Origin: Liolophura sinensis
Taxonomy: Eukaryota; Mollusca; Polyplacophora; Chitonida; Chitonidae
DNA: 64,000 nt
Direction: 5' to 3'
Assembly: GCF_032854445.1 (NCBI RefSeq)
Contig: NC_088301.1
Location: 124,001 to 188,000, forward strand
This document shows, one piece after another, positions 15,001-50,300 of the stretch (its first letter is position 1; every line of letters starts with the position of its first letter). Both the position numbers and the translations under genes were made by a program. The notes under the pieces are model-generated. The model saw only the letters and a program-made list of their open reading frames with translations, was not told where the DNA came from and searched no databases.

Positions 15001-18000
15001 GCTGACCGTTATATGCTGATAGTGTGTGCTGTACGCTACAAACATACGCTTAGGCTTAATCGTCATATACTGGAGAATAAAGATTTCGTGGATAATGAAT
15101 TAACATTGTGAACAGACAAAGACTCGGTTTGTACTCGGTGGTGTGATGATTTTATCAACTTACGTTTGATAACTCATATGTGAGTTTCATTAGACAAAGG
15201 GATTTCTTATTACATAACACCAAATGTAAATATGGAAGTGTACTTTCTAATTACCAAATTGCCGAAGGGGAGACGCAGTGAGATCTGTGCGAAAAACTGA
15301 TAGGCATATACCTGCTAAAATGAAAACGGCTATTTGACCACTCTAGCAGAAATGTCATGTTTTCTACAAAACACCAGTGTTTTGAATAAAACGTGGAAAT
15401 GATTTACTGAAAAGTCAATCTTATAAAATCTTATACCAGCCTATGCAAGGCGTTTGCACATTAATGCGTGAGTGTTTATGTCATGCGTCGTTAATATTTA
15501 CTCCGGTTTCCTCCATCTGTAAATCAGACTGCCGTACACATGAGTTTCCTCCATCTGTAAATCAGACTGCCGTACACATGAGCTTCCTCCATCTGTAAAT
15601 TAGACTTCCCTACACACGAGTTTTCCCTATCTGTAACTCAGGCTCCCGTACACATGAGTTTCGAGCATCTGTAACTCAGGCTCCCGTACACATGAGTTTC
15701 GAGCATCTGTAAATCAGACTCCCGTACACACGAGCTTCCTACATCTGTAAATCAGGCTCCCGTACACATGAGCTTCCTCCATCTGTAAATCAGGCTGCCG
15801 TACACATGAGTGAAAAACTGTTGAGTATGGTACCAAACATCAATCAGATTAATTAATGTAATAAGATAAAATATGTCAATGCTGACACCTGTTCAGGTGC
15901 ATGTCATTGGCTAACTTTCACATATGTTCTCCACAGATGAGGTAGCAGTATTTGTTGGCGTTTCAGATTTGACCACGGAGGTCGTGACACAATATCTCAA
16001 TGAAAATCCCGAATTTCTGGACCGCTACGTCTCAGCACATATCAATAATGAACGCTTGGAGAAATGGTCCAATCGTCGCCTCGCCAACAGCAAGCAGAGC
16101 AACAGACAAAGGTTGACAGAGTCAGGACTGATAAACGGTAAGGCACGATGTTGCTGATAGTACAGAAGATCCTTGGTTTTTATAGTAACCAGAAAGATTT
16201 AAGCATAAAACCCCCATATTCAGTCAGTGTTATATGTCACAAATGCAGTTCGGCTGGTCTCCTCTCCGGCCGAACTTGGGAAGGTCAGCAACTTACGGTT
16301 GTTCGAGTTTCCTCCCACCATAATGTCAGTCGCAATCGTAAAAGTAAAATCTTCTTGAGTATGGCGTAAAATAAATAAATAAACAGATAAATGCATAAAT
16401 ACAATCGGTCCCTTGATAACATGTGAAGGCCTCCATCTTTGCCGCAAAACGAACTCATATTTTGATATGTTGTAGGAGATTCTCAAGAAAACAGAAAACC
16501 AACAATCGCCAAATGGAAAGTAAGTCATTTTTGTTGTTTCGTACACACTGATTGATCATCTGTCCTGTAAACGGTATGTCTCAGGGTTAATCCCCAACTG
16601 AGTCGTACCTAAGACTTTAACGTTGATGTAAGTAATCTCGGCGCTCAAGGTGAGGGGGGGAGGGGGGGGGGATATAATGTGACTGGTCGGGACGTCGTGT
16701 CTGGTGTCTTCGGCATGGCGTTTTAGTAAGACAGGCACTAGTAAGACATTATGTCCGGCATGATACTAACATTTCAGTTTTTCTGATAGAAAAAATTGTT
16801 CAAACTCCACAAAAAACTCTTAACTGGCCCTAAAAGGTGGATAACTCAGTCAGGATCAAGCATTTGTTTACTTCACAGATGGTAATCTGTAGGTGAAATG
16901 CAGTGCCTTTAGTTTTCGGGCAGTGTGTAATAGTCTTTGGTATCTTGTTTACAGTCCTGTCTACAAGCAGACAAATGGAGGCTCCTGCAAGATTTGACGA
17001 GGGACATGAACCAGTTGTCCAACCGGAGTCAAATTCTGTACGAGTTGGCGTGTTGTATGGCGTCAGGTAAGATTTGTAACAACCTGTTTGATTGGTTGAC
17101 TGCTGGGTGCGTGAAGTTAGCGACTCTAGTGTTTCAGCAGTAGTATTACACTAATGTGGTATTATAGCTCTGCTCTCGCCTTAAGATACATTATCTGGTT
17201 TATACCAGGTCATTCCTGAGCTGTCTGCTTGGGATATCTCTGATGGAACGTAAACATGTAAACATGTATTCAATCATCATTGAGAATAGCCTCTGGAAAT
17301 TTTGTAAATATGTCTCTAGTGATATTTTAACTAAATAAAGTGTTATTAAAGCACATACATATATATACATATACATATGTATGGCCCCAAATACAAGGTC
17401 TGACTGTGCTATTCTTTTTACAGCAATGAATGCGGACGGTTTTAACTTGTGCCTGATGGATGAAAACAACGAGGTCAGTGATATTAACCATGCCTTTGGT
17501 CGGCTTACAAAGAACGTAAAATATTGATGAGTTCTTCTTATCTTAAATAATTTTTCAATAAAAGCCATCATGCTGATGGGTCTTATCTCACAGCGGCTTT
17601 ATCTGTAGCTTCTGGTACAGGACTGTTTTTGTTTCCTGTATCGTGTGGATGTCCCTAGGTTTGTGTTATTATCTCGTCATTATTCCTGGGGATTTTTCTA
17701 TGTGTCGATAAAGATATTTGTTTTATTTGTTCTCTAGGAGATTTTCCAGTACAAACCAAACGGTCAGGGGTATGTACTACTTTTATATCTTAGACACGAA
17801 GTATTTTTTTCGATTATTTGGTGACAAACGAAAACTATGTATGCTTTCAAAACAAAAACAACATAAAAACCTCGGGAATAATCTTGCACCATACGAGAGC
17901 TACATGGCGACTTGATTTAAGCTTGCAAGTGTTGGGATATATACAACAAATTTACATTCAGATAAATGTATTAGTCATGCATCACATCCTTATTTAAAGC

Positions 18001-21000
18001 ATTATTATGCAAAGACAATATATACCATATTATACATACATATAAATGTATATACATATACCATATATGTGATCCCAAATATCCACCATACAAAAATATT
18101 TTCAAATACACTTTCCACCTGAAAGAAAAAATTAAAATAAACAAGTTTTATATTAAATAAGTTTTCACGCTCTTTCATCTGATTTTGTCATCATTTTTAT
18201 GTTTTCGTCTCCTTTAATATGGAGATATTTAATATGGAAATTAAGAGCGTGGATATTACTGCATATCACACTAATGTGAATGTCTCTGCTTGACACGTTT
18301 TCAAACGCGTTCATGTGTCAGAGTTACCTCCCTTGAAAGCAGTAAATTGTTAGTTGGAATTCTGTTTGTGTTTTTCACAAAATAATCCGTTGTACTTTGT
18401 TTCTTAACAAAATGATTGTAAACAAAACAATGATATGTTTCAGAAAATCCCAATCAGTGCATTCAAGACACATTGGAAAGGGCAGTACTCTCTCGGCTTA
18501 TGTCGCGTATACAAAGGAAAGCATTCGGCTTAATGATATAATACAGGTAGGTATTCCGTCTACCTTACATGCAAAAAGGAGATTCGGTTTAACGATGTAA
18601 TACAGGTAGGTATTTTGTCTGCCTTACATCCAAAGAGGAGAATCCGTTGTCAGTAGATTTTCTGAGTTTATACACATTGGTTTATTTATTTATTTATTTA
18701 TTTATTTATTTGATTGGTGTTTTACGCAGTATTCAAGAATATTTCACTTATACGACGGCGGCCAGCCTTATGGTGGGTCGAAACCGGGCAGAGCCCAGGG
18801 GAAACCCACGACCAGCCGCAGGTTGCTGCAGACGTTCCTACATATGGCCGCAGAGGAGCTGGACTTGAACTCACAGCGACCGCATTGGTGAGAGACTCCT
18901 GGGTCATTACGCTGCGACATTGGTTTAAATTACTAATAAGGCGCATGAATACTTATATTTACAGAGAAACCATTGTTTAGTTTGCCACCGAATGTTGAAC
19001 TAACCTTCTCAGAGGCACTTACATGAAATTTTTGAGAGTTTGAACCCTTGAAAAAGAATCCTTCTAGGTTAAGACTGAGTAGGTTTTCATTATCTGCATT
19101 GTTGGCCATTTCCATCAGGACTCCCGGTTCCCAGAAGGCTTGGTATCCGGAAGCGACAAGGCCCAGTCAGTGATTGCGCAGCCAATCATATACTCCTCCG
19201 GGGAAGTTCTAGGTAAGTACCGATAGATTTTTACTTCGGGTGGGGGGCCCGAAGTGTAACTATTGTGTGGAATTAAGTCATTTTTGGGAACAAGCCTGGA
19301 GGATTTTCGGCCACTTCTTTGAATAAGGCTATGTGGGTGCTCCATGCTATGTTACTGTATGTTCACGCTGTCATTTGTTTTGTCTGTAGGTGTGGTTGAA
19401 TTATACAGACATATTGGATGTCCTTACTTCAGCGTGGATGACGAAGAGGTATGATTGACCATTCTGACCAGAACATTTTTATGTAGCAATTTTGAAATTT
19501 TACTTATTTTATTTATTTGATTTGTGTTTTACGCCGTACTCAAGAATATTTCCCTTATACACCAGCATTATGGTGGGAGGAAACCGGACAGAGCCAGGGG
19601 GAAACTCACGACCATCCAAAGGTTGCTAGCAGACCTTCCCATGAGTTTTGATTTTCAAAAATCAGTATGTGAAATGCTCGACCATTGAACTTATGTGTGT
19701 TAACAGGCACATTGTCGGGAATTAATTTTATCTTTGATTGAAAGACAAAACTAAAATAACGTTTAAAGAAAGAATTTCACTATGTAATACGTTATGATCC
19801 TGCCACACCATCCCTTAGTGAAAGGCTGACAATGTACATAGCAGTGATATATATGGGCATACAGAAAAACGACTGTAAAATTGTAATACACAGTGGTCTT
19901 TCTGAGTGTAATTGCCCTTGTTTTAACGGTTCTTTTGCCTCCCACCAGGTGGCCAAGTGGTACCTCTTGTGGACTGATATTATTGTGCAATATCACGAGG
20001 TATACCGCTATCTGTGTTATCCATGATTAACACACTGTAAGAGTGGGCTTTTAACTAATACGTATATGTATGATGCAAATATTATACCCTAATATTAACC
20101 AAGCTTGAGCCAATTCTCTCACACATTGCTTTTTCGTCAGATGTCAGGTTTGTTTCATTTCGTTATAGACAGAACAAAATGCCTTTGTTCAAGCAAAAAT
20201 ACCCCAATAAAAAAGAAATGTATCAAGTGAGAGTGTCAGTGAATCGGCTCGCTACGTCATAATATGTCCGATAGCTTTCCTACTAACTTCATGTTTCTTA
20301 TTTTAGATGGTAGCCAAATTCCTGCTCTGGGGAAGCGTAGCTGTTCACTTTGCTGAGGTATCATTCCAAACTTCTTCCAGTATTGTTCACGGATCCTAAA
20401 ATGTCCGTTCACTTGCATGCATGGATCATGAATGTCATTCTGAATGTCACAGGTCAATCATGGTGCCTAAAACGACGCAAAACGTACGCTATACCATAAG
20501 CCCATCGGTATGAGAAGTGAAATAGCAACGCTTAAGCGGCAATGCATAGTATGGCCTAGACTGAATTGCCATCTACATGTTCTTCATGTCACTGAAGTCG
20601 TATGCTGTCCAGAAGTATAAAGTGATATATGAAGACCGTGTAAATGGTTCAACACTGAAAAGTAGACACTCGTTGAGATCGATAATGGCACCGTCATACT
20701 TCCGAGCTATGATCATCATGGGGTATGAAATGGGGTTAGAACTGATTCGAAAATGGAAATGGTTTATTCTGCTATAGGTAAAGAGCAAGATGTCATACTC
20801 TGCTTTTTAACAATGCCTTTTCCTGGATGGCAGTTGCCGTTAAGAACTCCTTAGGAAGTTCACTCAGCTCAACTATATATTTATCTCATCAGCTTCCCTT
20901 GATTTATTGCTGTCTAAAGTCAAACATCACAAAAAAATGATTTGCATTTGTTAATAGATTGTTAATATATTTAACATTAGCCACAAGCAAATTCCGTGTC

Positions 21001-24000
21001 AAATTCCATGATGTATTGCGACTTTATGTAAAGATGTCATTATGCTAGCACCTTATAAACAGGTATAAATTGCAACAGATTTATTGTGAGAGCGTAATTC
21101 GTGTACACTGCTGAATGTGGTCATGTAGGATAATTACATCATTTCCGGGTAATTCGTGTACACTGCTGAATGTGGTCATGTAGGATAATTACATCGTTTA
21201 CGGGTAATTCGTGTACACTGCTGAATGTGGTCATGTAGGATAATTATATCGTTTACGGGTAATTCGTGTACACTGCTGAATGTGGTCATGTAGGATAATT
21301 ATATCGTTTACGGGTAATTCGTGTACACTGCTGAATGTGGTCATGTAGGATAATTACATCGTTTACGGGTAATTCGTGTACACTGCTGAATGTGATCATG
21401 TAGGATAATTACATCGTTTCCGGGTAATTCGTGTACACTGCTGAATGTGGTCATGTAGGATAATTACATCATTTCCGGGTAATTTGTGTACACTGCTGAA
21501 TGTGGTCATGTAGGATAATTATATCGTTTACGGGTAATTTGTGTACACTGCTGAATGTGGTCATTTAGGATAATTACATCGTTTACGGGTAACTCGTGTA
21601 CACTGCTGAATGTGGTCATGTAGGATAATTACATCGTTTACGGGTAATTCGTGTACACTGCTGAATGTGGTCATGTAGGATAATTATATCGTTTACGGGT
21701 AATTTGTGTACACTGCTGAATGTGGTCATGTAGGATAATTACATCGTTTACGGGTAATTTGTGTACACTGCTGAATGTGGTCATGTAGGATAATTACATC
21801 ATTTCCGGGTAATTTGTGTACACTGCTGAATGTGGTCTTGTAGGATAATTACATCGTTTACGGGTAATTTGTGTACACTGCTGAATGTGGTCATGTAGGA
21901 TAATTACATCATTTCCGGGTAATTCGTGTACACTGCTGAATGTGGTCATGTAGGATAATTACATCGTTTACGGGTAATTTGTGTACACTGCTGAATGTGG
22001 TCATGTAGGATAATTACATCATTTCCGGGTAATTTGTGTACACTGCTGAATGTGGTCATGTAGGATAATTATATCGTTTACGGGTAATTCGTGTACACTG
22101 CTGAATGTGGTCATGTAGGATAATTACATCATTTCCGGGTAATTCGTGTACACTGCTGAATGTGGTCATGTAGGATAATTACATCATTTCCGGGTAATTC
22201 GTGTACACTGCTGAATGTGGTCATGTAGGATAATTACATCGTTTTACGGGTAGTTCGTGTAGGCTACACTGTTGAATGTGTTGTCATGTAGGATATGTAT
22301 ACGTGTCACTTGCTTAACTAATTTTTTTAACGAATACTTTTCTGTGATAATGTCCATGTGTGTTAATCCAAGTCACCCTCTGACCGTCTTTTTCCATCTG
22401 TCCCGACGTCACGTGTTCCTACAGGTGTGCTTGTCATTAAAGGTTGGTTGTATCACGTGACTAGAATACAGTCAAAACGACGACGTCACTCCGTTATTGT
22501 TGTTGTTGTCCTAAACTTTTGGGTTTGAGTTTTGTCTGCTGTTACCTACTGAACTGTTACCGCTTCGCCCCACCTCAAAAATCATTTCATTTCGTTTTTA
22601 CTCAAAACGTTTTAATACATTAACAATCGTTTTAGTCTCGTTTTCTACTTTTTACTCCACATAATTTTGAAGCAATGCAGATTTATTTCATCTCTGTGTT
22701 TTGGTATTATATCGATGGTGTGATGATTCTGATATTCCTAATAATTTCTGTCTTTTACTCTAATCTCTCTTTTTATAACCACGAAGGTATTATTTTGCTT
22801 CACCTTTGTATTTCACTTTCATTCACAACTACTCAGGCATCGCCTGTATAATTCACACAAAAATACCTATTTTCTAAAACTGCTTCAAGCTCCCAAAAAG
22901 TGAACACATGTAACTTAATCAACATATGGAAACAGTTTCTCAAGTTAATCCCTGTGGCCGAAAACCACTGTTCACACGGGTATGCACAGAAAAGACGATC
23001 AAAGTCACTGTTTAATGTAGAGTCTATGACATGGTAAATAACTTAACTGAGTATGGTAATACACATGCATGGGCGATTAAGATTACCGATTTGAAAATCA
23101 GTTGCACTTTGGCTTTAATAATAATAATAATAGTGATTGTTTCCAAGAATCACGTATTCTTAAACACGTATAAACCTTGATTTTCACAGATGTACCATGC
23201 AATGACGAGACAGCGGAAACTCAACGATTTCCTATTAACTGTAACTAAGTAAGTACACCACACTTGGTATCGCACTGAGCCCCTCGCCCAGCTTCTCTAT
23301 GTTTTTTTTAACATTTCACACATTTTGAAGTAAACATATATTTGTTGTGTTGCAAACTAATATATTTTTAATTATAACTGATTATACGTAATCGTGTATA
23401 ATTTGACAAAGGACAAACGTTATGCAAACGTTGATCCACGCACCTGATCAGCACACGTTTATGTTTCTTTTTAACTTGTTTCTAATTAATTTATTACAGA
23501 TCAATATTTCAAGATATCGTCAGCATGGACACTCTTATAATGAAGATTATGGTGAGTGGTCGGAGAATGTCTCTTCCCCACATAACTCAATCAGTAGCCC
23601 AAGTTTGTGGCTTTTTTTATAAATTAACAGGTTTTCAGTAATTATTTAAATTTTATTTAAGAATTTGCTGATACATATATGATACATGATACTTATGATA
23701 CAGTGTTGTTATCTGTTCCACGTATTTCTGAAACTGCCAAAGAAAAAATGAATGAGTGTAACGGATCATTTCCAGTTATAGTTTAATGTTTTTGTATCTT
23801 TTCATTGGGATTCATTTTTCCAGTGTAATTGTGATTTGACTTGTTTCTTCACATGTGATTACTTTTTGTTCTATTAATTTAGTTTTTTGATTGTTGTGTA
23901 ACGCCATTTTCCATATTCTACAAAGGTATGAAACTAAATTCTATATCCAAGGAAAATCTGAAATCTATTAAATTTGATCTGTTGTCTGTACTCTACAGGC

Positions 24001-27000
24001 AAGAAATCACCTGTCCATTATTAGCAGTATAGCTAAAGAAAAATTGTCGGCCTACATTAATGATTTAGACATTTCACCGAAAAAAATAAGCTATTAGTGG
24101 ATCAGATATTACACTGATAAAACAAGCTTCCGTTAAAACCTTGTGAGGAGACTTGACAGAATGAATTACATCTCCATGGCCGAGTGCTGCATGTAACATG
24201 ACCTTTTCTTCACTTAGACGATTCCAGTTAACATGAACGGAAGTTTTTATTTTTCATTGTAGAGTTACCGGTTTATTTTATTTGTGGAACCTTATCGTTG
24301 TTATAAAACACGAGGCCGATAATTTTGGTGTGGTAAAAATGTATCATTTAAATGTTTGTGTCCAGAATTTTGCTCAAAAGTTGGTGAACGCAGATCGTGC
24401 CTCCTTGTTTCTGTTGGATAACCACACCCATGAACTGTACGCCCGAATATTTGACGTGGGTACTGAGCAGCGCCAGGACAAAAGCAACCGAGAGATCAGG
24501 TTAGGTTTCGGTGCAGAGGATATATTAACATCAAATCTCGTCGCAAGGGGAGCTGAAGACACTGTTATTTTGACTCGTACATTATTTCAGGCGAAGTGGT
24601 TTGTTCAGCAAAAATCAATAACTAATTGATAAAGCACAACCTCGTGATGTCTCGCGTTGCTTGTAATCAATCACAAGGCAGATGGAACCTATATATAAGC
24701 AAAAATTGCTACATTTGCTAAGAAGGAGCAGTTTGACTCGGCACAGCCTACATTGTCTGAAATAACAGTCTAAATCAAACAGTGATCTAAACAGACATCC
24801 CGCAGACATCGCACAGACATCGCACAGACATCGCGCAGACATCCCGCAGACATCGCACAGACAGAACACACAGAACATAAAATGCATTCTTGTAACAGAA
24901 AAGAACGTGGATTATGTTTGCACGTTTCACAGCAGGAAATGGCTTATTTTGTTCCAAGCGACTGGTACGAGTTCTCTATTAAGCCTTTGTATACAAAACC
25001 ATTATCTGTATTCTTTGACAGAACTATGCAAAAAAGCTTGTGAATGCTGATAGGGCGTCGCTTTTCCTGGTCGATATGCGATCACGTGAACTGTACGCCC
25101 GAATATTTGACACCGGTTCCACGGAGGAGCCAGACAAAAACCCAGTACTTCAGAAAGAGATAAGGTCTGGTTGTGCTCTCAACAAGTATGTAGTGTTGTG
25201 ACCACCGCTAACCAGAAATACAGCTTTCCTTCTAAGTTTTTCTTATTTTATTTATTTTTTTTATTCCTTTTTATGCTTTTTTTCTTATTTCTAAAAAAGC
25301 ACGTTATTATCTTTGAAGATGTTTTTTATGGCACCGTTTTAAGTTTTATTCTAAAAGAAAAACTAACCACAAATTTTTTTGAATTGCACTGTTTTAACCT
25401 AAGCATTTACCCTTTAGACATACAGATGAAACCATCTCCTAAAGTATCCTGTATTAACTGCAACCTGTCGATCAAAATAGGTGACAGAGAAATCGTAGAG
25501 CTCAATTGTGGGACTTAACTGTGGGAAAAGTTTCGAGCAGTTGCATTACTTATACGTTTGTATGTTAGACTAATAGACGTTGCCTAATAGCTTTTACAGT
25601 ATGATTTTGTTCATCTTAATTTGAAAGCGTAATTTCCTATCCAGGTTTTTCAGGTGAATTATTTATTTAGTGACAGAAACGCTGAGGTAGAGCAATTGGG
25701 TTGAAGTTTTGGATGTTTATTAATAAGAAATACTTGAAACAGGTACAGCTTTTTTCAAGTACTTGCGAAATAAACCGTCACGCCAAAGATTTAGCAGAAA
25801 GGAACGGCTGTTTTTATGCTTTGTGGTATTAGTTGTCTCTGTTTTACATATTTTCCTTTCGGTTCGAACTTTTTTGGATAAAATTACAAGCTGTCATGTT
25901 TCACTATTTTGACTGCCACGTTAAACCTTCCGATGTAGGTTGTATACTACCATGCATGCTTTGTGTGTTAGGATGAAAACCTAACACTGCTATACTTTAG
26001 AAAAGGCGCGTGGAGCCTAAGGCAAGACATCTGCTTAGTAGATGACTTCACCTTTGTAACTGCTTGGAATAGCAAAAGCTAGTTAGAGCGTCAACCTTTT
26101 AGGAATGTATAGAGAATTTCGCCTAGTTAGTTAGCGACACAGACGATCAATTGCCCCCCCCCCCCCCCGCCACTACACGTGTGAAACTCCTCTGACTGAA
26201 TCACATCATCATCACTTGTTACAGCACTTTTCTCCGATTATCCCTCACTATTCACCTCACTTCATATTCCAGTTAGTGTCATGTTGTTACTTTTATTATC
26301 GGTATGTCTTCCATCTTGCTGCATTTTCAGTTTGCTACGTTTTGTGGTTAAACATAGTTTAGAATAATGAAGATTTTTGTTAAATTCTTTGTTCATGAAT
26401 TAATTTTAATGCTCGTGAAGTTATTAATTATTTTATCATTAATTTCAATTTATGGCTATTCAAAATGATAAAAATGCTTTGAAAAATATTCAAATGCAAA
26501 CGGTGGCATTTCGTCTGTTGAGATTTGTCCTCAATCCTTTATTAAAACGTTGACACAAGTTAAACCGTCTGCTAACAGCTCTACGAGAAATGATTATGTT
26601 ATATAAGCTTATTTTGACATGTATAATCCGCAGAAAACTGTGTCTAAATAAATAGCACACCGTCTTTACGTTTTTTAGATTCCCCATGGACAAAGGTGTT
26701 GCAGGTCACGTGGCATCTACAGGACAAATTCTCAATATTTCAGACGCATATAAAGATGATAGATTCACAGGTAAAACCACTCCTGTCGCTCGTATATCTT
26801 TACTTGTTTACTTATTTATTTGATTTATGCTTTACGCCTTACAACACGAATATGGCAATTCAGGCTGCCAGCATCACGGTAGGAGGAACCGGGCAAAGCC
26901 CGGAGGAATCCAACGAAGATCCGCAGGTTGCTGCAAGACCTTCCCAGCATGAGTTAGATTTGAACTCACAGTCACTGCCTTGGTGAGACGTTTTATAATG

Positions 27001-30000
27001 CAAGCTTAATTTATTGGACATGACTAGGGGATTGGGTGAACAGTTCCCGGCCATGCATTTTGGTCTACATTGTGGTTTGTTTCCACCTATCTCTTATAAA
27101 TGATGATTCCCAGCTTGGTCACAACGATTCCTCAGACGTATGAGATCACCAAGTGGCCAGTTGGCTGTGGGTCATCCTCATCAAGCAAATAAAGAATTAG
27201 ACTAAATCGCATGATGACAGTTATTGTTCCAGTGATATTTTAGGATTAACCTTTAATTCAATTAAAATTAAAAATCGACTCTAAGAGGGACAATATTGTC
27301 TTGATGCCGCAGAATCCAGTGTTTACTAGATTGAAAACATTGTAAAAAAATCAATTTAACTGTTTTTATGAACAATGTTTTAAGTCTTTCGTCAGGCATA
27401 TACTTAACCGTAAGATGTGAAAATCTTAAATCTTCACACTTGCCGTTAAGATGTGACATTGTAATTATGAGTGCCTTTGAGATCAAAAATCCATGAAACG
27501 TGTTGATGAATAAGTCATGACCAAAGCATGTCTTGCTTTGAAGATCGCGTTCTTGATTATCATGAAAAGCTGGAAACTGAGGATTCCATTCAGTTGACAG
27601 TAAATACAACGGGACACATGACAAAGTCATAGTGTTACCATTGTTATTAGATTCATCTAGTTGTGTCTTTATCTTCTCGCATATTAACTTGCTTTGATTA
27701 ATAACGCTGTGTTCATCATGACTTTTGCTTGTGATCGATTTTAGGCGGTGAAAACACAACATCAGAAATCCCTGATAATCGTTGATTGTTTTTGTCATCT
27801 CTTTCCCAGGGAGGTCGATCTTCAAACCGGTTACACGACAAAAACCATCCTGTGCATGCCTATATACATCCGAGGAATGTAAGTAGAGTGACTTCCCCAT
27901 TACCTACACTGAGTAGTTTGCCTTGTAACAGTACGTGAATTTGAAGTTTTGAGAACATGAATTCTTTCGTTTCACAAACTGAACCATCATCTGTATTCAA
28001 CAGTTTCAAACCAGAGGGCATTTTATTGTATGTAGGAAATATTCTAGGAAAAGAATTTAAAATGTTGCATCTCATTTTGTGAACGCATAGCAAACTTTCA
28101 ACTTTTTTCCATGTTAACATTTGACCTGAAGAGACAGTAAAATAATACAAACGTCTAAATTACACACCCTTAAATATGAAGCGGAAACTTTTAAGTAAAA
28201 TTATTCATATATTTCTTCATTTTGTTTTATTTTGCAGAATTATAGGTGTTGTTCAGATGGTGAATAAACTCAATGGTGTGTTTAATAAAGCGGATGAGGA
28301 ATCGTTTGAGACGTTTGCTGTGTACTGTGGACTGGCTCTCCATCATGCTAAGGTAAACACTCTCTGCATGTCATGCTGGGAAGCAATCAAGTGGTCTTGT
28401 ACGCATTTTCCTCTCAGGGAGGTTTTTTTTATACCATTCTGATAGGTTTGATTCCACATGTTTAACTGGAGCATGTTTGTTTATCATATACCTCTGAACA
28501 AACCAATGGGCCTCCGTGGCTTAGTTGGTTAGGGCGCTAGCGCAGCGTCATGACCCAGGAGCCTCTCAACAATGCGATCGCTATGAGTTATTAGTCCAGC
28601 TTATGCTGGCTTCCTCACCGGCCGTATGTGGGAAGGTCTATCAGCAACCTGCGGATGGTCGTGGGTTTCCCCAGGGCTCTGCCCGGTTTCCACCTACCAT
28701 AATGCTGGCCGCCGTCGTATAAGTGAAATATTCTTGAGTACATTGTTAAACTCCAATCAAATAAATAAATGAACAGCCCCCCACACTGTCAGCCTTCACC
28801 GGGGCTGAGCCGGGCGTCATATCTGGTGTCTGTGACAGGTCATTTGGTACGGAAGATGTGTAAATACGTCGACATTGCGTGACAGCGGAGACACTTTCGA
28901 CATGGAAAGCGAGTTTGAAAACTTCACCAGTCAAGCGGGTCATGGCCTGAGATGGAGAAACATTCCTGCACTGACAAATTTGGCAACAGTACGTTTTTAA
29001 AACCTTATAATCCCTGGCGTTTTCTTTTCCCCACAGCTGTACGACAAGATTCGCAGATCCGAGCAGAAGTACCGCGTAGCTCTGGAGGTTCTGTCCTACC
29101 ATAGTCAGTGTGCTGAGGACGAGTTCGAGGAACTAAAGATGAAGGCTGTACCTGACAAGCTTCCTCATCTAATAGAGTGAGTTTATGACAAAGACCTAAG
29201 GGCAAATTGGCGCCATTGATGTCCAAAGTTTGGGCATTCCATTGATAGATAGCATAGGCCACGCACTGAGACACAACATAAACATACACGTTTGGCTAAA
29301 TAAAGCTATAGACTGATTAACTACAACATAAAATAGTTATCTCTAAAGAAGGAAACTATAGATGACAGAAATGAGGATTGTTATTGTATGAATTGAAATA
29401 AAGTTGTTGTTCATTTCAGCTACAACTTCTCGCCATGGGCGGTAACCGGTGATGAACAACCGCTCTACGTTATTTATATGTTCAGAGACTTATTTGAGCT
29501 GAACAGGTAAGCATTGTCCAAAGGTATGACCCTTAATAGCCTTCAGGATGATTAACATCTATTAAATCAATAACTGTTCCATCTCAAATAAACAGATGCA
29601 GTTTTATCTACGCCAACGCTTGGATTACACCTAGCACCTCACCCATAACATACATATATGCAGTGTACTAGTACGGAACTCTGCAGACGGGAAAACACGG
29701 TTTTCTGTTGACTGACCTGCAAATCGCATAATAATTTATCAAGGCATATGTCCGAAGCTCCTCTTCCCTGTGATTTGACATTGTTAAGTCACATGCCGGA
29801 AGTTCCTCTTCCCTGTGGCCTGGCATTGTTAAGTCACATGACGGCAACTCCTCTTCCCTGTCACTCGGCATTGTTAAGTCTGTCGGCAGTTCCTCTTCCC
29901 TGTGACTCGGCATTGTTAAGCCACATGCCGACAGGTCTACTTCCCCGTGACGTGGCATTGTTAAGTCATGTCGGCAGCTCCTCTTCCCTGTGACCTGGCA

Positions 30001-33000
30001 TTGTTAAGTCATATGTCGGCAGCTCCTCTTCCCCGTGACTCGTGACTTGTTGAGTCATATGTCGGCAGCTTCACTTCCTCATGACCCGGCATTGTTAAGT
30101 CACATATGGGCAGCTCCTCTTCCCGGTGACTCGGCATTGTTAAGTCATATGCCGGCAGTTCCTCTTCCCTGTGACCTGGCATTGTTAAGTCACATGACGG
30201 CAACTCCTCTTCCCGGTGACTCGGCATTGTTACGTCACATGCCGGGTGCTCCTCTTCCCTGTGACCTGGCATTGTTAAGTCACATGACGGCAACTCCTCT
30301 TCCCTGTGACTCCGTATTGTTACGTCACATGCCGGGTGCTCCTCTTCCCCGTGACCCGGCATTGTTAAGTCATATGTTGAAAGCTCCCCTTCAATGTGAC
30401 TCGGCATTGTTAAGTCACATGCCGGCAGTCCCTCTTCTCCTTGACCTGGCATTGTTAAGTCACATGCCGGCAGTTCCTCTTATCCTTGACCCGGCATTGT
30501 TAAGTCACATGTTGAAAGCTCCTCTTCTCCGTGACCTGGCATTGTTAAGTCATATGCCGGCAGTTCCTCTTATCCGTGACCCGGCATTGTTAAGTCATAT
30601 GCCGGCAGTTCCTCTTCTCTGTGACCTGGCATTGTTAAGTCATATGCCGGCAGTTGCTCTTCTCCCTGACCCGGCATTGTTAAGTCGTATGCCGGCAGTT
30701 CCTCTTCTCCGTGACCCGGCATTGTTAAGTCATATGCCGGCAGTTCCTCTTCTCCCTGACCCGGCATTGTTAAGTCATATGTCGGCAGGTCGACTTCCCT
30801 GTGTGCATGATATATGCTGTAAACCTGTGTCTACCCCAATGAAAATTCAGAGGATTTACGGCTATTTATTTTAAACGAAAAGCTAATTTTGAGGATTCTC
30901 TAAATGGTTTATTGGTTTGTATTGGTTTTTGGAGTGTTCATATTCAGAACTAACAGATTGAAAGTCGCAAAGGTCACCGCGTTGACTGACCTTCTGAAAG
31001 ATTGCTGACTAATAATTTGCCGAGTGACAGAACTGGGGCCATTTTGCTGAATCATGGCTCGATGAAAAAAATAACATTTGCGTGCGTCAGTCCTAGTTGG
31101 CCGGAAAGTTACAAATAATATTTAATGTCGCCCTGTCGTTTTATGATGTATGCTTCAAAAACAACGTTTATGCAAATCATTATGGAAAAACGGAAAATAA
31201 TGTTTCACGAAACTGACTAAATACCATATGTCCGTTAAATACACAAATTTTTTTGGTGTCATCTTGCATGGTGATCCATTACGTCTCGGATAACAGCAGG
31301 TATGAAGATTAAAACTTTTTCATTGTAGATCTCCAGAAGACGAAAAGAGGTAACCTTGCTGTTTACAGTTAAAACCTTAAACTGCTCGGCCTTATTCTGC
31401 TTGCTTATTCACGCAATATAACTTTGACTAGTTTCACTATTTTATTTTTATACAGAAACCTTACATGGCACTAACACACATTGTTGCGTTTTGTGATTTT
31501 AAATATTATTCCATTAATTTACTGCTGGTTTAGTCGTTCAAAAATGCATTATGTTCAGCTTGTTCTAAGACATTTCCATTGACTGATATTAATAAAACTT
31601 ACGCATGGCTCAGTTTATAATGCACTTTTGAATAACTGATCCATGATTACTAAATTATAGTCCTATAACATCTTGTTAATCCGTAGTTGACCGACTATCA
31701 CTGCTTTTCACATTCAGCAGGCTAGGTTATCCACTTTTCAATCCTTTGTTTCCGCCGTGAGCATATCCCACACACTAGACTACCTACTGTTAACATTTGT
31801 AACAATAATCTGTATTTGTAAGAATACCGTGTTCAACACAGTTGGCCTACAGAACAGCCATTGATTTGTTCTCGGTGTCCACATCTATATCATCTATATC
31901 ATCTATATCATCTATATCATCTGTATCATCTATACCATCTATATCATCTATATCATCTCCGTGCTGGAAATCAGATGAATGGTGATATCTCAAAATCAAC
32001 TAATTTCCATTCAGAAATTTCAGTTGAATGATTTTCACGATTCTTATTGTGTTTATATAGTCGCATGTCTTAGCATTCTCCTCGTCACTGAGGGAATTCC
32101 ATCACACTCAAAAAATTAATCTGTTGATTTTAATAGAAAGTGTTTTGTCTGACTGACGCTAGAATGTAGTCTGTTATTAGAATACCATATTCTGTCAAAC
32201 TCATCATAGTATCCTGTTAGTCTAGTAGAATCTTTATGCTGAATTAATAGAATATGTGTGTTACATTTCACACAACAATCTGCTGCAATAGCAGAATACA
32301 TCCTAGCATCGCTTAGAAAGCAGACTTTCTGTTAAAATTAACACAAATTAGCATAATCTAGCCACAACAGTAGTATTTTCTTGTAATTTGATTATTTCAT
32401 TCATAATTTATGGAAATAAATTACAAGTTAAGAAAAGGTAAAACCTGTAAGCTGTCTAGAAGTTTTAATTTCTAATTTCGCCGTTTCCTCAGATTTGACC
32501 TTCACGACCTCCTGAGGTTCACCCTCACGGTCAGAAAGAACTACCGAAAGGTGCCGTACCACAACTGGGCGCATGCGTTCTCCGTGGCACATGCGATGTA
32601 CACAGTGATCAAAACCTCCTCACATCAGTTCACCCCTATTGAGGTAAATGTTCTCTTGTCTTCTAGTATTGATTTAGGTTGAAATGAATAACGTTATCCT
32701 TCCGTGGTAAACTGATTCCAAGCTCAGAAACGCCTACACATTCTACACTCCTTCGTACTTTCGCAGGACCTCTGTCTCGGCATGCTCAATCAATCAGTCA
32801 AATACCGCCATGTTTTATTTCTTCTGCCTCAGTGCATCGGTGAAAAATTCTGTAATAGGGGTAAATACGCACCGTGTTAAGAAGTACAAGGTTTGTGTTC
32901 TTCTGCAGTGCTTAGCCTTATTTGTGGCCTGCCTCTGCCATGATCTTGATCATCGGGGGAAGAACAACGCCTTCATGGTGAAGAGTGCCTCGCCTCTAGC

Positions 33001-36000
33001 GGCCGTGTACTCAACGTCCACCATGGAACACCACCACTTCAACCAGACGGTTACCATTCTGCAGGTAAGTTCCACAACTAGCTGTAAAGGCCGAGTGAGT
33101 TACCATTCTACAGGTGAGTTCCACAACTAGCTGTAACGTCCGAGTGAGTTACGATTCTGCAGGTGAGTTCCACAACTAGCTGTAACGTCCGAGTGAGTTA
33201 CGATTCTGCAGGTGAGTTCCACAACTAGCTGTAATGGCCGAGTGAGTTACCATTCTGCAGGTGAGTTCCACAACTAGCTGTAATGGCCGAGTGAGTTACC
33301 ATTCTGCAGGTGAGCTCCACAACTAGCTGTAAAGGCCGAGTGAGTTACCATTCTGCAGGTGAGTTCCACAACTAGCTGTAATGACCGAGTGAGCGCGTGA
33401 GTCACCATTCCTCCTCAACTGGCTGTGATGGCCAAAGTGTCTGATTTGATTATGAGGGCTCAGTTTCCAAATTTTATAACTGGCGATTTTATTCTGGGAC
33501 TGAGTTGTGCATCACGCCTATTGTCTTAAGCACACTGTTTTGGTGAAATGAAATGACACGATAAATATGCTGACATGATTGATGGTGAAATCGACATGTA
33601 GCCTAAAGCAAACAAACTAAGTATCCAATGCGTATTTTTGGTAACTTCAACTGCACTGGTTGATTTTTAGTAACAGTTGCTACACTATAGCAATAAAGAA
33701 CAAGTTTTATTGCCGATTTGCTTTTTCTTTCAGCACGAAGGGCATAATATTTTCAAGCACTTGTCATCAGACGAGTACAAGCAGGTCAGTTGGTCATAAG
33801 CCTGGTAATAGTAATTCAAGGGTCGGATTTAAACGGGCAGGTCAGCTGGTCATATGCATGGTAATATAAGGGTCGTCATCAGACGAGTACAAGCAGATTA
33901 GTTGGTCATAAACATGGTAATATAAGTCGTCACCAGACGAGTACAAACAGTTGAGCTCGTCATAAGCATGGTAATATAAGGGTCGTCATCAGACGAGTAC
34001 AAGCAGATTAGTTGGTCATAAACATGGTAATATAAGAGTCGTCACCAGACGAGTACAAACAGTTGAGCTCGTCATAAGCATGGTAATATAAGGGTCGTCA
34101 TCAGACGTGTAGGTTAGCTGGTCATAATCTCGGTAATATATGGGTCGTCATAAAACGGATAGGTCAGTTGGTCATAGGGATGGTAAAACAGGTATGAGGG
34201 TCGTCATCAACGAGTTCTCGCAATCCTCTATGTATTAAACAACATGGCAAAGGTTGTAAAGTGGGAACGTTAACCCCCATGTATGCATACATGACAAAGG
34301 TGTTGAACACAGAGAAAATTTAAGTGGCAATCTATCAGAGACAACACTGCTGCTTATCCAATCAAAAACCGTTTTGAATAGTTTGAAACCCTGAATGGGA
34401 AAACTTGATTATACACTGTGCTTCTTTTGCATAGGTTCTCGGTGAAATAAGACATTGTATCCTTGCAACAGACCTAGCGCTTTTCTTTGGCAATCGCGCC
34501 AAGCTGAAGGAAACCGCAGAAAAAGGAGAGTTCTCCTGGCAAAACGAGGAACACAGGTAAGAGTGGAAGTATACCACAGAAGATTTGGCTTGTGAACCAT
34601 TACATATTAACATTCTATAAATGAAGTAACATACAAATAATGATACTGACAAACATTTCAAATAAACTATTCCGTCTTTTATTTAGTCATTATTCCATGT
34701 AGCTCTTAAGGTACTGCCTTTAAAGTTTAAGGATATTATCTTTAAAATTGGATGCTATTTCTCATGTTACGAAAGGGTTGGTACTGACAAAAGTGTGTAA
34801 TAATGCATTCGTTAGACCATGTTCAATGACGTGCGTGTTTGAGTGTGTATTCACCATTATTCATTTCACTCACCTTGAAAACTAATATTTTGATTCCATC
34901 TGATAATCTTTTAACTTGATAATCTTTTCACAAGCCATTACAAACATGAATAGCGTTAACAGTCATGCAGAATTATGCAGGCTCAGATATTAAAGACTTG
35001 GGTTGGGATGTACATGAACAACGCAGACAGTGATAGAACTCTGCTTAGGCATTTTATGGAGAGAAAAGGTGAGCTTAAACTCTCGTTAAATATGCATTTT
35101 TTCGGAGTACAGTACACCATTTATTATTTGCTGGCTTCCCACACATTCTGGACAGACTGGCAGCAATTTTAAAGAGGAAAATGTATTGTCTGGAAGAGAC
35201 TTTCAGGAAATATTCAGATTGGGCAACGTGTGACTGACTGCGTCGATGTATTACATTTCAACCTGCGATTTTACAGACATTTTTGGTGTTGATAGAGCAG
35301 ATGGGTATATTCTTTTCTGCACCTTGGTTTTCACTAAAAACAGTTTGCTGTGTTTGTGTGCTAAAGCTCCGTTCCTCTTGTCTCTCTAATCGTCTGTTAG
35401 AAAAATTTTGAGAGCCATTACCATGACCGGATGTGACCTTTGTGCCAACATGAAACCCTGGGACGTACAGGTCGAGACGGTCAAGGTCATCTTCGAGGAG
35501 TTTTACGAACAGGTATGGAGGAAGATTTGTCCTCTTCTTTAGAAATATCCTATCGTCTATGATCCTCTTCCTGCTCTCACCACATAGGTACAGAGTTCGA
35601 TTAGCATCTTTGTGAACAGCAATTGGTAATTCCTCAAATATTTTTCCCAGTTTTCGGCTTCATTAATGACAGAATTAGAAAAAAATACAGCTATCCTACA
35701 TGTACGTTCCTTTTTGTGATGTTGATAAGACCATTACGTCTGGGATGAACCTCACTCCTCGACAATGCGACCCAGTCCATACATATACTGAAAAGCATTT
35801 CAAGTCTTCTAATTTATTTCAACTAGCTCCGGATAGCTTGTGTTTTACCGCTCTGGATGATGGATAATGTATCCACGTTTTGTTTTTCCTTGTTTCGTTC
35901 ACATCTCACCACGCACTATCGTTTGAGCCTTCACCCACTTTTTGTCGTGTGATTGCTCCAGTATTAACAGTCACAAAATATGGCGTCAAATTATACGATA

Positions 36001-39000
36001 GTAAACTTAAATGCCAAAATTGTCGTCGAATTAAACTTACTTTGCTAGAAAAATAATCTAACGATTAATAATCTAATGAAGTCTTTGACTGAAACATATT
36101 TTTTTAGAATCGTTACATATAGCTGTTCAAAGAAGGAAACCAAACTAGCCTTTCTTTGATTGAAATGTAGAACATGTGAACATATCAAAGCAAGTTCAGT
36201 TTGTACCAGATTTGATAAATCAATTCTCATCAACGAAAATCGTGCAAAAGTGATGGGGCGAAATGTTTGATATGCATGACTATGAGTTGTCCCCCTTGGC
36301 TGATGTGTAGAGTTCTCATCATGGACTTGAGCATGACAGTGGCCGATCTGTGTACAATGTACAAGCCATGGGAATTACACCAAGAACTCGTATTCACCAT
36401 TATGGAAGAGTTTTGGCAGCAGGTAATTGGAACGACATTGTGAGAGATTGTGAATTAATTGTTTCCCTGTTTACGAAATGTGAATGTGTTGAATGTCTAG
36501 TGTTCATGGCAATGTTTAGGTTCATTTTCAGCCAGAAATCCATTGTTATCTGTACCTGTCTCATTTCTGTACCTGTCTCATTACTGTACCTGTCTTATTT
36601 CTGTACCTGTCTCATATCTGTACCTATCTCATTTCTTTACCTGTTTCATCCTCATTTTTCCATTCTCCTGAATTGTGTCGCTTAGAACACGATATGCTTA
36701 GAGGTTTACCTTAACTCTCTTAACTAAGCCAATTTATTTTCAGGAAATCCAAACTTTATTTATCAGAAACTTGGTAATTACGCTTTGGCCACATGTCGAA
36801 TACCCTGGCTTTGATCCGGGCACTTGTTATTTTCCATAATAATTTTATTTTTCCTCTGGTCATAATTAAGTGGCTCGCAAACTGTCCAATATTCGGTTTC
36901 CCCTTACCATAATTAACTGTCTAGCAAACGGGACTCCAATCAGGTTCTTCTCGCCACAGTAAAGTGGCTCGCAAACTGTCCAATAATCGGTTTCCTCTTG
37001 CGCTTATGAACTGTCTTGAAACCTGGACATTAATGGGTTTCCTCTTATCATAATAAACTGGCTCTGGGAATCTTTTGGCGAGTGAACTCTTCAGCGTTTT
37101 GGGTGAATATCAGAAGTTGTGTAAGTTGCTGACTTTTCATATCCTGTCTGTTAGGGTGACCGAGAGAAGGAGCTGGGCAGCAAACCCATCCCATTAATGG
37201 ACAGGGATTGCGCCGACGATTTACCTCAGACTCAGGTAGTAGGCCTAATAATGCATGTAGACAGCATATATGTGTAGAACGTGTAGCCTGTGTTAGAAAG
37301 CCTGATGTTCGTTGACTATACCCACATGCACATGCTCTTTTCTGTTGTTCCGGTCCAGCTCACAGCCTGGTTTCTTACCTAGCGCAGCTTTATGCAAGTT
37401 GCTCGCTGGTCTCATGATCAATGCGCATGCTAACTGACCTTTGACCCTGCTGAAACTAGTCTCCCTCAAATAGCAGCAACGAAAGTATTTTCGTCTGATA
37501 TCACATGTAGCCACGCGATGTCAAAAAAGACTTCCATTGTTATCCTAGAAGAGCACGGTATTATAGGGATTGTCTCTTTGACGCCTTTGTTCTGATCCCT
37601 CCAGCCAATGTTTATACTGCGTTACACTGTCAGCACTTGGCACGGCCCCTGCAAGAGTGGGCTTCTACACGAGTTCTTGTGGGAAAAGATTAGTAAATCG
37701 CTCAGATCATATCAAACTCATCTCATAACTACGTTATTGAGAATGAGTTTATACCCTGCGCATAATGCAATAATGCAATAATAACGCATTACTTACATTA
37801 TAGGATGGAGTATTGTCTGGTGCAAGTCTATGTTGTTTTCATCCAATCATTCGTGCATGCAAGCTTCATTCGATGATCGTACCAGTGCAATCATTAATAC
37901 AAACAAACTTCATCGCCACATTTACAATTTCAAACATTTTTACAGTCGATAATTGTACAAATTTCAGTAAACAATACAAAATGTCTATTGTCAACGAATA
38001 GAAATCATTTGAAATGAAAGCCACCTCTCTGGTATAGAAGGATGATGGCGACAAGCCAAATGAGCATGTTGAAAGTCGATATCCACGTCAGACTCAGATA
38101 TCACACAGAAGGAAGACGTGAGGAAGCCACCTTTCTGGTATAGAAGGATGATGGCGACAAATCCAAATGAGCATGTTGAAAGTCGATATTCACGTCAGAC
38201 TATAGACCTTGATATCACACAGAAGGAAGACGTGAGTGTCCCTTGTATAGTGTCGGATGCTTTCTTCGGAAGCAAATGTGCATGTGGTAAGTTGACGATG
38301 GCGGGCTTTCTAATCCCTGCCCGACGTAGAGAAGTGCTGGGAGACAGAGTCAGATAAATCTGTATGTTAGTCACATGTGAGCCCCAGCGACGTCACGTAT
38401 CGCCTTATTTATCCATGAGTATTTCCCCTCACAGGGTGATGAAGAGAAATCCAAAGGGTTAGTTCCGCAGCCAATGATGGACCGGGACAAAAAGCACGAG
38501 TTGCCACAGCTTGAGGTATAACACAGCGCCGTCTGGCGGCTTGGGTACAGGATTCTAACGCTTTGTCTCACAGTATCTATGATTTCCATAACAACAACAA
38601 AACTGTTTAACTCATTATCGAACAATGAAGTAATGCAAGTGCAGATAGGTGTAGAACAATGCATTCCAGGACCATGGTGCATGCTTTGGTCTGTAATTTA
38701 TGTAGAAATCCAGCGGCTATTTCATTCGGTTCATAGTTATGCACAATATTTCAAAGCTTTCTTTACATTATTTGATGACACTTATAACGTCATTTAGTTG
38801 TATTGGTGTGATGCTTGCATTAGATTTTGTGACGTATCTTGTTGTCTGTTAACACTTGCTGTAACATTATGCGCGGGCTTTGAAGGAATTTTGACTATTT
38901 TTTTTTTGCGACTTCCGGTTTCACATAGTTTTTTGGGTGGAATGGATGCTGACATGAGTTGTTGTCTTGTAAACTCATTGTAAGTCATCGCCCACGAGAA

Positions 39001-47300: not shown

Positions 47301-50300
47301 TCAAGAATATTTCACTTATACGACGGCGGCCAGCATTTATGGTGGGAGGAAAACGGGCAGAGCCCGGGGGAAACCCACGACCGTTCGCAGGTTGCTGGCA
47401 GACCTTCCGACTTACGGCCGAGAGGAAGCCAGCATGAGCTGGACTCACAGCGACCGAATTGGTGAGAGACTCCTGGGTCATTACTCTGCGCTAGCGCGCT
47501 AATCAACTGAGCCACGGAGGCCCCCTGATGTGTAATTGGCAGTCAGCTAAAATGTTTTTCCCCAAAATGTAATAAATATGTTGTCGTTTAAGATGAAATG
47601 GTGTCAAAATGATGAGCAGCCTGAAGACAATCAGGAGATTGAAAGGTATCGCAACGCTTTGAGGGGGTCCTTACAGGAGAAGACAACTCAAACTGTCGTA
47701 AACGGATCTTCTTATGCCTAGTAATACAGTTAAAATCATTTGAAATCAAATAAGAGATCCAGGCCACCATGTCTCAGTGGAAGTATAATTTTTAGCCAGT
47801 CATATTATCTCAAAATTCGAATAAATAAATAAATAAATAAATAACAGTAAATTTCTAATATTCAGGGGTTAAGCTTAAACATTACACTACATGGCAGGTC
47901 TATTGTCGATACTGAATTTGTCAAACTTTAGTCTAATGAATGAAATTATTCGATAAGTTACATTCTGAAACCAGTGTGTGCAAGTTGGCTACACACATGA
48001 AGCATGTAAACGACACGGAGGGACTGATGTTCGAATTAAAACCGGGTTGGTTTACCGGCGGCTTTACGTCAAGTTTGTCATGTGGTTAGTGAAGGGCGGT
48101 GGTTTCCCAGGGTTATGTCTGGTTTCCTCCAATCATAAAATCTAACTACCACCATATTACTTAAAAGTCTGAAACGAATTGATATCAGCAGAGCATAATA
48201 CACTTAGAAATATATACAATACTTCCGGCCAAATGAGCACAAAGATTAAAATCAATTCAGAAAAACAAATAAGCTGTTAATCTGTGTACCTCTGAAGACA
48301 CTTTCATAGATATCCAGCTGTGATGGCGACGTAAGAAATACATAACAATGGCGACGTATCAAAGAATACCGAAGAATGGCTACGTAACACATACAGAAAA
48401 ATTGGGACGTATCACATACAGAAGAATTGCGACGTAAGACATACAGAAGAATGGCTACCTCACACATACAGAAAAATGGCTACTTAACATATACATAAAA
48501 ATAGCGACGTAACACATACAGAACAATGGCGACGTAACACATACAGAACAATGGAGAGGTAACAGATTCACAACAATGCATACGTTACACACACCCAACA
48601 CAACAAGGGATACTTAACACATACAGTCATGGAAAAAATTATTAGACCACTCATATTTTCTTTGGTTTCTTGTTCATTTTAATGCCTGGCAACCCTAAAG
48701 GTGTATTAACCGAAGATTACAATGAATACGATAAAAATCCAGCTGATTCCATAATACTTTGTCGTATTTGATATGCTTTAAGGTCAGTTGTATTCCTAGG
48801 GTGTATGCCAGGCAATTTCATGCTTTCCATTTACATGCAGACTTACATAAAGAGTGGTTTCCTGTTTACATGTAGGCTTACATAAATAGGGGTCTCTTGT
48901 TTATATATTAAGACGCAGCACAACTCGGTAGTTGTCAGCTCTCATAATGCCTAAAACGAAAGAATTATGTGGAGCCAGAAAGGCAGCCATCTTGGCATAG
49001 CTGGATACTGGATTGAGCGAGCGACAAGTGGCCAAAAAACTGAAGATCTCTAAGACAGCAGTTCATTACACCAAGAAAAAGCAAGCCGAACATGGTACTA
49101 CAAAACTGCTAGCTGGTCGAGGCAGGAAACGTCTTTCTACCCCACGAGATGACCGAGCACTCATCCGGTCCTGTATCAAGAATCGTCGTCAGACCTCCAG
49201 AGACCTTAGAAATGAGTGGGCATTGTAAACAAATGTGACTTGTTCAGCAAGAACAGTTCGAAACCGACTTCTTGAAGCTGGTCTAAAGTCGCACAAGGCA
49301 CGGAAGAAGCCCTTCATCAACGAGAGGCAGCGGAAGGCCCGCTTGCGTTTTGCGAGGGATCACAAGAATTGGACTGTTGATGATTGGGCTAAAGTTCTCT
49401 TCAGTGATGAATCCAATTTTGAGTTGATGCCTACTCCAGCCAACTTACTGGTTAGGAGGAAGCCTGGGGAAGCCTACAAACTTGCTCCTACTGTAAAGCA
49501 TGGGGGTGGATCAGTGATGATCTGGGGTTGTTTCAGTATGGGTGGAACAGGACAGATGCAGTTGTGTGAAGGGAGAATGAACCAAGTCACATACAGAGCT
49601 ACTCTTGAAAACAGTCTTCTTCCATCAGCTGCTAAACTCTTTCCTGGCTCGAATGACTGGATTTTCCAACAAGACAATGCCACTTGCCACACGGCAAGGT
49701 CAGTTAAAACCTGGATAGAGAACCGGAACATTCGAACCATGAATTGGCCTGCTCAGTCACCTGATCTGAATCCAATTGAAAACCTGTGGAATATTATCAA
49801 GTTCAAAATGGAGAACCACAAGCCCAAAAACAAAGCAAATTTGTTCGAATTTTTGCAACAGGAATGGGCTGCTGTGACCGCAGGGCAATGTAACAAACTG
49901 GTGGAGAGCATGCCAAGGCGCATGGCTGCAGTCATCAAAAACAATGGGCATGCAATCAAGTACTAACTCCCGTGTGAGACTGAGAGTCATGTGACTACGT
50001 GACTAGGAGACATAAGAAAAAATGAAATGCCAAAATGTTTTTGAGAATACAGTTGCCACATCTACAGATGTATGAACTTAAGTGATTTTGGTCATTGTCA
50101 AGAAAGTCATAGAGAACTGATAGATATCACCTCTTAAATAAAACCCTTATGAACTATTTCTGTTTTCATCACTTTCTTTGCCCAAACAAATGTTCCTTCA
50201 GTTGTGCAAGGTTTTAAAATGAACAAGAAATGGGAGAAAGCAAGGGTGGTCTAATAATTTTTTCCATGACTGTACATAGTAATGACGACATAGCACATTC

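Follow-up and report, generated by a model that had tools for sequence, protein, structure and literature searches.

Muscle myosin heavy chain reportedly carries several clusters of alternative exons that tune one protein at several places; we know of none among these clusters that exchanges an invariant catalytic residue. An enzyme core switched by splicing is known from coq-2, whose mutually exclusive exons 6a and 6e change substrate choice in helminths, annelids and molluscs (PMC7434440). Here we describe a 64,000-nucleotide (nt) stretch of the chiton Liolophura sinensis (contig NC_088301.1, positions 124,001 to 188,000; hereafter the window, whose own numbering is used), in which a cyclic nucleotide phosphodiesterase (PDE) gene of the PDE10 type contains four pairs of adjacent, homologous exons. 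As in coq-2, adjacent alternative exons would alter the enzyme core; unlike coq-2, which has one pair and encodes a quinone prenyltransferase (PMC7434440), the window gene has four pairs, encodes a phosphodiesterase rather than a myosin-like motor protein, and changes an invariant substrate-binding residue. Neither a report of these PDE10 exons nor one of a phosphodiesterase with a natural Gln-to-Glu change was found among the titles and abstract starts surveyed in the open-licence PubMed Central (PMC) literature, a scope too narrow to establish absence.

The residue concerned is a glutamine described in a 2025 review as invariant and hydrogen-bonded to the substrate (PMC13095499). Its change to glutamate at the equivalent position has been made in the laboratory in a different PDE family. 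In the PDE9A Q453E mutant, the Michaelis constant (KM) for cyclic GMP (cGMP) rises from 0.113 to 2.8 µM and that for cyclic AMP (cAMP) from 501 to 1233 µM, with the turnover number (kcat) approximately halved (PMC3069055). Catalytic efficiency falls about 50-fold on cGMP and 5-fold on cAMP, the cGMP/cAMP preference declines to 29 from an initial 337, and one inhibitor is bound with about 1800-fold lower affinity (PMC3069055). The same paper disputes the role of this glutamine in discriminating cAMP from cGMP, the so-called "glutamine switch" (PMC3069055). In contrast to the engineered mutant, the glutamate of the window gene comes from a natural alternative exon.

The gene model comprises 25 exon positions (E1 to E25; a and b denote the upstream and downstream copy of a pair) on the forward (+) strand between 15937 and 40883. 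The doubled positions, defined by exon joins and comparison of the copies, are E9 (E9a, 19949..19999; E9b, 20307..20357; 17 residues each), E12 (E12a, 24366..24499; E12b, 25022..25164; also matched by relatives), E22 (E22a, 35401..35512; E22b, 36311..36422) and E23 (E23a, 37155..37235; E23b, 38435..38515; placed by alignment to PDE10A). These eight exons lie where a first-pass annotation of this DNA had put them, with AG/GT borders and with equal phase within each pair. Adjacent homologous exons of equal phase, each having its own splice sites, constitute the arrangement typical of mutually exclusive exons. Alignments bear out that both copies of each pair code for the same protein segment, similarity being beyond chance and weakest for E9. 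By alignment placement, E9 covers the end of GAF-A and the beginning of the linker, whereas E12 encodes the first half of GAF-B; E22 supplies a catalytic segment with a metal-binding Asp (closing with FEEFYEQ in E22a and MEEFWQQ in E22b), and E23 the stretch that ends at the switch residue. When 18 relatives were used as queries against the window, no third copies, and no second copy of any other exon, were found.

Two other origins of the pairs were considered. Two interleaved genes, or two collapsed haplotypes, might mimic such an arrangement, but nothing was found in favour of this; the doubling is limited to four exons, adjacent and on one strand, with all other exons single-copy, and the copies differ by 40-70% at the protein level, so that we give this origin almost no credence. 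Alternatively, one copy per pair could be a decaying, unused duplicate, as the weak donors at the alternative exons and the weak acceptors at E22a, E22b and E23a might suggest; against this, none of the eight copies contains a stop codon and the proteins of relatives include both kinds of E9, E22 and E23, making decay very improbable. The frame argument put forward in the first-pass annotation also holds: inclusion of both copies of E12 (134 and 143 nt) or of E22 (112 and 112 nt) breaks the frame. E9 and E23 have lengths that are multiples of three and therefore frame does not police their double inclusion. Altogether, we infer that the four pairs are spliced as alternatives in the window species. 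A figure of 32 isoforms, also proposed at first pass, found no support.

Assignment of the gene to PDE10, likewise made at first pass, proved right. Pfam detects two GAF stretches and a PDEase_I domain in the window protein (275 bits with the a copies and 274 bits with the b copies; cut-off 24.8), the two GAF domains preceding the catalytic domain as is proper to a PDE10 member. With the a copies, the E21-E25 segment has human PDE10A as its top solved match (124 bits, versus 101 for a PDE5/6 chimera and 99 for PDE5), and so it does with the b copies (122 bits, versus 95 and 92). PDE5 tops the scores of the full-length protein against solved chains (437 bits, versus 321 for PDE10A and 253 for the best catalytic-only PDE5) because the solved PDE10A chains comprise only the catalytic domain. 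PDE11, for which there was no reliable reference sequence, was left out of the family comparison. Human PDE10A shares with the window gene the domain order, the catalytic sequence (best match in the Protein Data Bank, PDB) and the Gln of the E23a form; it differs in having no Glu form, and we know of no alternative E22 or E23 exons in vertebrates. The top-scoring relatives are mostly molluscs, although a sea urchin model, with part of the catalytic domain present twice, ranks first among the best 120 of 693. The relatives bear the name PDE10 or "probable 3',5'-cyclic phosphodiesterase pde-5", and a review gives Caenorhabditis elegans pde-5 as the PDE10 ortholog (PMC12346295). The closeness of E21-E25 to PDE10A, the names of relatives and the pde-5 orthology thus identify the gene, as judged from its sequence, as a PDE10-type cyclic nucleotide phosphodiesterase, with hydrolysis of cAMP and cGMP as its predicted activity.

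The most consequential difference between copies lies at the very end of E23. E23a ends in PQTQ and E23b in PQLE, the last codon before the donor being CAG (Gln) in one and GAG (Glu) in the other. In gap-free PDB alignments to human PDE10A (evpqgQlgf), the E23a form (dlpqtQvgf) places its Gln on the invariant purine-binding Gln, and the E23b form (elpqlEvgf) places a Glu there; hence E23a retains the invariant residue and E23b does not. Since the last residue of E23 occupies the purine-binding position, splicing would choose between Gln and Glu in the active site. The first-pass annotation, correct in seeing a PDE10 gene with alternative pairs, had missed this main consequence. From the family alignment, together with alignments to PDE10A, PDE5 and PDE2, we take the end of E23 to correspond to Gln453 of PDE9. 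On the strength of the Q453E kinetics, inclusion of E23b is predicted to yield a weaker, cAMP-shifted and inhibitor-resistant PDE10 isoform.

Distribution of the two residues was analysed in 298 relatives gathered in three protein searches, one of which contributed its best 120 of 693 matches; sister isoforms are hidden in this database by its clustering at 90%. Of the 298, 229 allowed the switch residue to be scored, yielding 178 Gln, 51 Glu and no third residue (models with two E23 copies were scored by the last copy; the 69 that could not be scored are mostly short fragments). Glu forms come from 33 named species, comprising 30 molluscs (bivalves and gastropods), the brachiopod Lingula and the annelids Lamellibrachia and Paralvinella, plus six proteins lacking a named source; the 51 do not represent 51 independent cases because a single species may contribute several isoforms or near-copies. 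Among named sources, Glu was seen in lophotrochozoans only. Gln also occurs in this group, namely in Crassostrea virginica, two nemerteans, Owenia, Ridgeia, a bryozoan and the first copies of Pinctada and Paralvinella. In an alignment of 35 proteins, each of the 14 Glu forms has Leu immediately before the switch, and not one of the 21 Gln forms does. For the Glu form of Haliotis rubra (P0021), the structure model has a 10-residue mean predicted local distance difference test (pLDDT) score of 87-91 over residues 341-390, the Glu at 382 included; among solved structures, those of PDE10A come closest to it (best E value 9.7e-26; 46-47% identity in the top ten).

One could envisage the Glu isoform as a decoy with poor catalysis, able to bind GAF ligands and to dimerise while hardly hydrolysing, so that the splice choice doses active PDE10. 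The glutamine is indeed described as critical to substrate binding (PMC3069055); yet the PDE9 Q453E enzyme retains about half of its kcat (PMC3069055), and the five metal and catalytic residues checked in the 35-protein alignment are shared by all its members, 14 with Glu and 21 with Gln. Although this conservation argues against loss of the metal site, it does not argue against low activity. Overall, we regard a decoy as unlikely. The explanation that we favour, and consider probable as a whole, is that the PDE10 pre-mRNA offers two copies each of E9, E12 and the neighbouring active-site exons E22 and E23, and that the choice at E23 would swap the family-invariant purine-binding Gln (E23a) for Glu (E23b). 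The Glu form would remain active while binding the purine less tightly, its preference moving in relative terms from cGMP towards cAMP, as in engineered PDE9 Q453E. The choice at E9 and E12 may tune GAF-dependent regulation, and weak splice donors would aid exclusion, as would the reading frame in the case of E12 and E22. A broader proposal, which we hold tentatively and rate not far short of even, is that splicing toggles lophotrochozoan PDE10 between two catalytic modes, a Leu-Glu pair taking the place of the invariant Gln and the residue ahead of it; the Glu mode would read the base in another way, being cAMP-biased, pH-sensitive through protonation of the Glu, or open to other cyclic nucleotides.

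Evidence in relatives for copies used as ALTERNATIVES is supplied by pairs of proteins from the same species (the X-numbered isoforms were predicted by the source of each record). In Mytilus edulis, X22 carries E22b and X19 carries E22a, both with a Glu E23, and Biomphalaria glabrata X1 and X4 have different copies of E9. Two proteins of 169 residues each, P0123 and P0136, are encoded on contigs of 1585 and 1566 nt from one source; they are identical over their first 41 and last 64 residues and differ only over E22 and E23, where one has E22a with Glu and the other E22b with Gln. These contigs look like transcripts because they cross four exon junctions of the window gene without introns. Of all the evidence for alternative use, this pair is the strongest single item. 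In models from Pinctada and Paralvinella, both E23 copies are present, with Gln first and Glu second, as in the window. Thus, the comparison across relatives recovered both kinds of E9, E22 and E23; no second species with both E12 copies was found among them, and for E12 it is the frame that argues for exclusivity. As to the mutual exclusivity claimed at first pass, E9, E22 and the E22-E23 combination do behave as alternatives in relatives, whereas E9 does not do so strictly. Nucella and Babylonia each have two distinct PDE10 proteins encoded on different contigs, all with Glu (P0034/P0042 and P0032/P0043), which probably reflects a gene duplication in these whelks.

A number of observations weigh against the explanation that we favour. 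E9 is doubled in P0004, P0010, P0024 and P0037 (models of M. edulis, X9, and of Saccostrea, Tubulanus and Dreissena) and absent from P0030 (M. edulis X19). Both E23 copies occur in only two lophotrochozoan gene models, and C. virginica is the only other mollusc with a Gln form; the scarcity of both is perhaps due to the 90% clustering of the database. Ridgeia has a b-like E23 that nevertheless carries Gln, and a cockroach model (P0100) has two E23 copies, both with Gln. The E22b of the window has a His 11 residues after the metal-binding Asp, versus Gln in 14 of 14 Glu forms. The E22 copy and the switch residue are not coupled (a with Gln, 148; b with Glu, 37; b with Gln, 15; a with Glu, 12, where "a" stands for "not b" and lumps several variants). 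The kinetic properties predicted for the E23b isoform are extrapolated from one PDE family to another. Finally, a one-base frame break separates the end of E13 (26766-26770) from the start of E14 (27810), and the PDE10 gene as assembled therefore does not encode a full protein.

The irregular behaviour of E9 fits a reading in which the tandem exons are not exclusive and both copies may be included, at least of E9 and E23, so that linkers or loops would be lengthened in addition to alternatives being offered; the lengths of these two exons, multiples of three, would permit it. In E12 and E22, however, double inclusion breaks the frame; E23 is doubled in three gene models only (P0003, P0100 and P0121), and doubling would place 27 extra residues ahead of the switch. 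We grant this reading appreciable weight, clearly short of even. As for the frame break, the joined exons read without stops from E1 to E13 and likewise from E14 to the stop in E25, one base shifted. Relatives read F-N-R-E/D-V-D across this junction. None of the alternative E13/E14 borders inspected by eye repaired the frame, and no joining microexon was noticed on reading the sequence, a reading not followed by a search aimed at one. The simplest reading is that one base is missing, either through a sequencing or assembly error or in a real broken allele.

E23b of the window is identical to its Mya and Mactra counterparts at 23 of 27 residues and to its own partner, E23a, at 14 of 27. Similarly, E22a matches crayfish E22a at 31 of 38 residues and E22b matches oyster E22b at 25 of 38, versus 15 of 37 within the pair. 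The case of E23a is less clear, its best cross-species match being 16-17 of 27. Being closer to the copies of other species than to their partners, the E22 copies and E23b thus belong to lineages that predate the window species. Sea urchins and starfish have two types of E22, KPW and KPF (P0001, P0058, P0060 and P0061), which suggests that an E22 pair exists outside protostomes too. In view of these types and of the double cockroach E23, the doubling may be older still or recurrent. In a tree of 70 E23 segments, which at 27 residues are too short for firm branches, Glu and Gln forms fall broadly apart, except that the Glu copy of the window has the second cockroach copy (Gln) as its neighbour, and the second Paralvinella copy (Glu) is placed next to Ridgeia (Gln).

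How exclusion might be achieved was examined at the splice sites. The introns between copies measure 307, 522, 798 and 1199 nt, and introns of such lengths are too long for steric blocking. Donors are weaker at alternative than at constitutive exons (mean 5.4 versus 8.4 bits; 8 versus 20 sites; p = 0.004); the difference between acceptors is marginal (p = 0.06). The E9b donor (20357-20366; GTATCATTC) agrees with the U12 consensus in 7 of 9 positions and is the only U12-like donor among the pairs; a branch-like sequence, AACCTTGAT, also matching at 7 of 9, lies 10 nt before the E10 acceptor (23150-23190). Scores of at least 7 occur at 61 of 4122 GT sites in this U12 comparison. The E9b-E10 intron could conceivably be of the U12 type and take part in E9 exclusion. 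As a general exclusion mechanism, U12 splicing is at best weakly suggested, and at E9b/E10 only. Inverted repeats that might form competing RNA pairings were found, and no known RNA family reached its gathering score in the window. Tandem arrays occupy 18523-18648, 33050-33393 and 33783-34186; each starts at the 3' end of an exon (E6, E19 and E20, respectively) and repeats its terminal sequence. In the E19 array CAG/GTGAGT recurs five more times, and in the E6 array CAG/GTAGGT recurs once more, as decoy 5' splice sites.

The remainder of the PDE10 (pde-5) gene, for which the model lacks the upstream start exon or exons, was delineated from exon joins, translation, Pfam and homologs; AG precedes and GT follows every internal exon. 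Except where stated, the single exons are defined by exon joins and by matches to relatives. The 5' part consists of E1, the N-terminal segment (15937..16137), E2 (16476..16519; exon joins and translation), E3 (16955..17066), E4 (17424..17473), E5 (17738..17769; at 32 nt the shortest, placed by splice sites and frame only), E6 (18444..18546), E7 (19119..19212) and E8 (19390..19448). E10 (23190..23248) and E11 (23500..23551) separate the E9 and E12 pairs. Downstream of the latter are E13 (26679..26770; exon joins), whose end is offset by one base from the frame of E14 (27810..27878), then E15 (28238..28352), E16 (29037..29176) and E17 (29420..29506), followed by the catalytic exons E18 (32493..32643; YHNW motif) and E19 (32909..33064; HDLDHRG motif), E20 (33734..33784) and E21 (34435..34556). 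The gene closes with E24 (39513..39601) and E25 (40760..40883), which encodes the C-terminus and the stop. Elsewhere in the window, an open reading frame of 243 amino acids at 49235-49966 resembles a Tc1/mariner transposase, as judged by eye. A tandem array of 21 copies of a 55-bp unit occupies 21094-22261, in the intron after E9b, and 74 copies of a 35-bp unit lie at 59551-62131, downstream of the PDE10 gene.

With both Gln and Glu versions in one gene, the disputed glutamine switch becomes a natural experiment, in which two isoforms would be one exon apart; the Glu form itself occurs across molluscs, a brachiopod and annelids. Second-messenger selectivity could be set by splicing, and the other exon pairs may tune the regulatory domains of the same enzyme.

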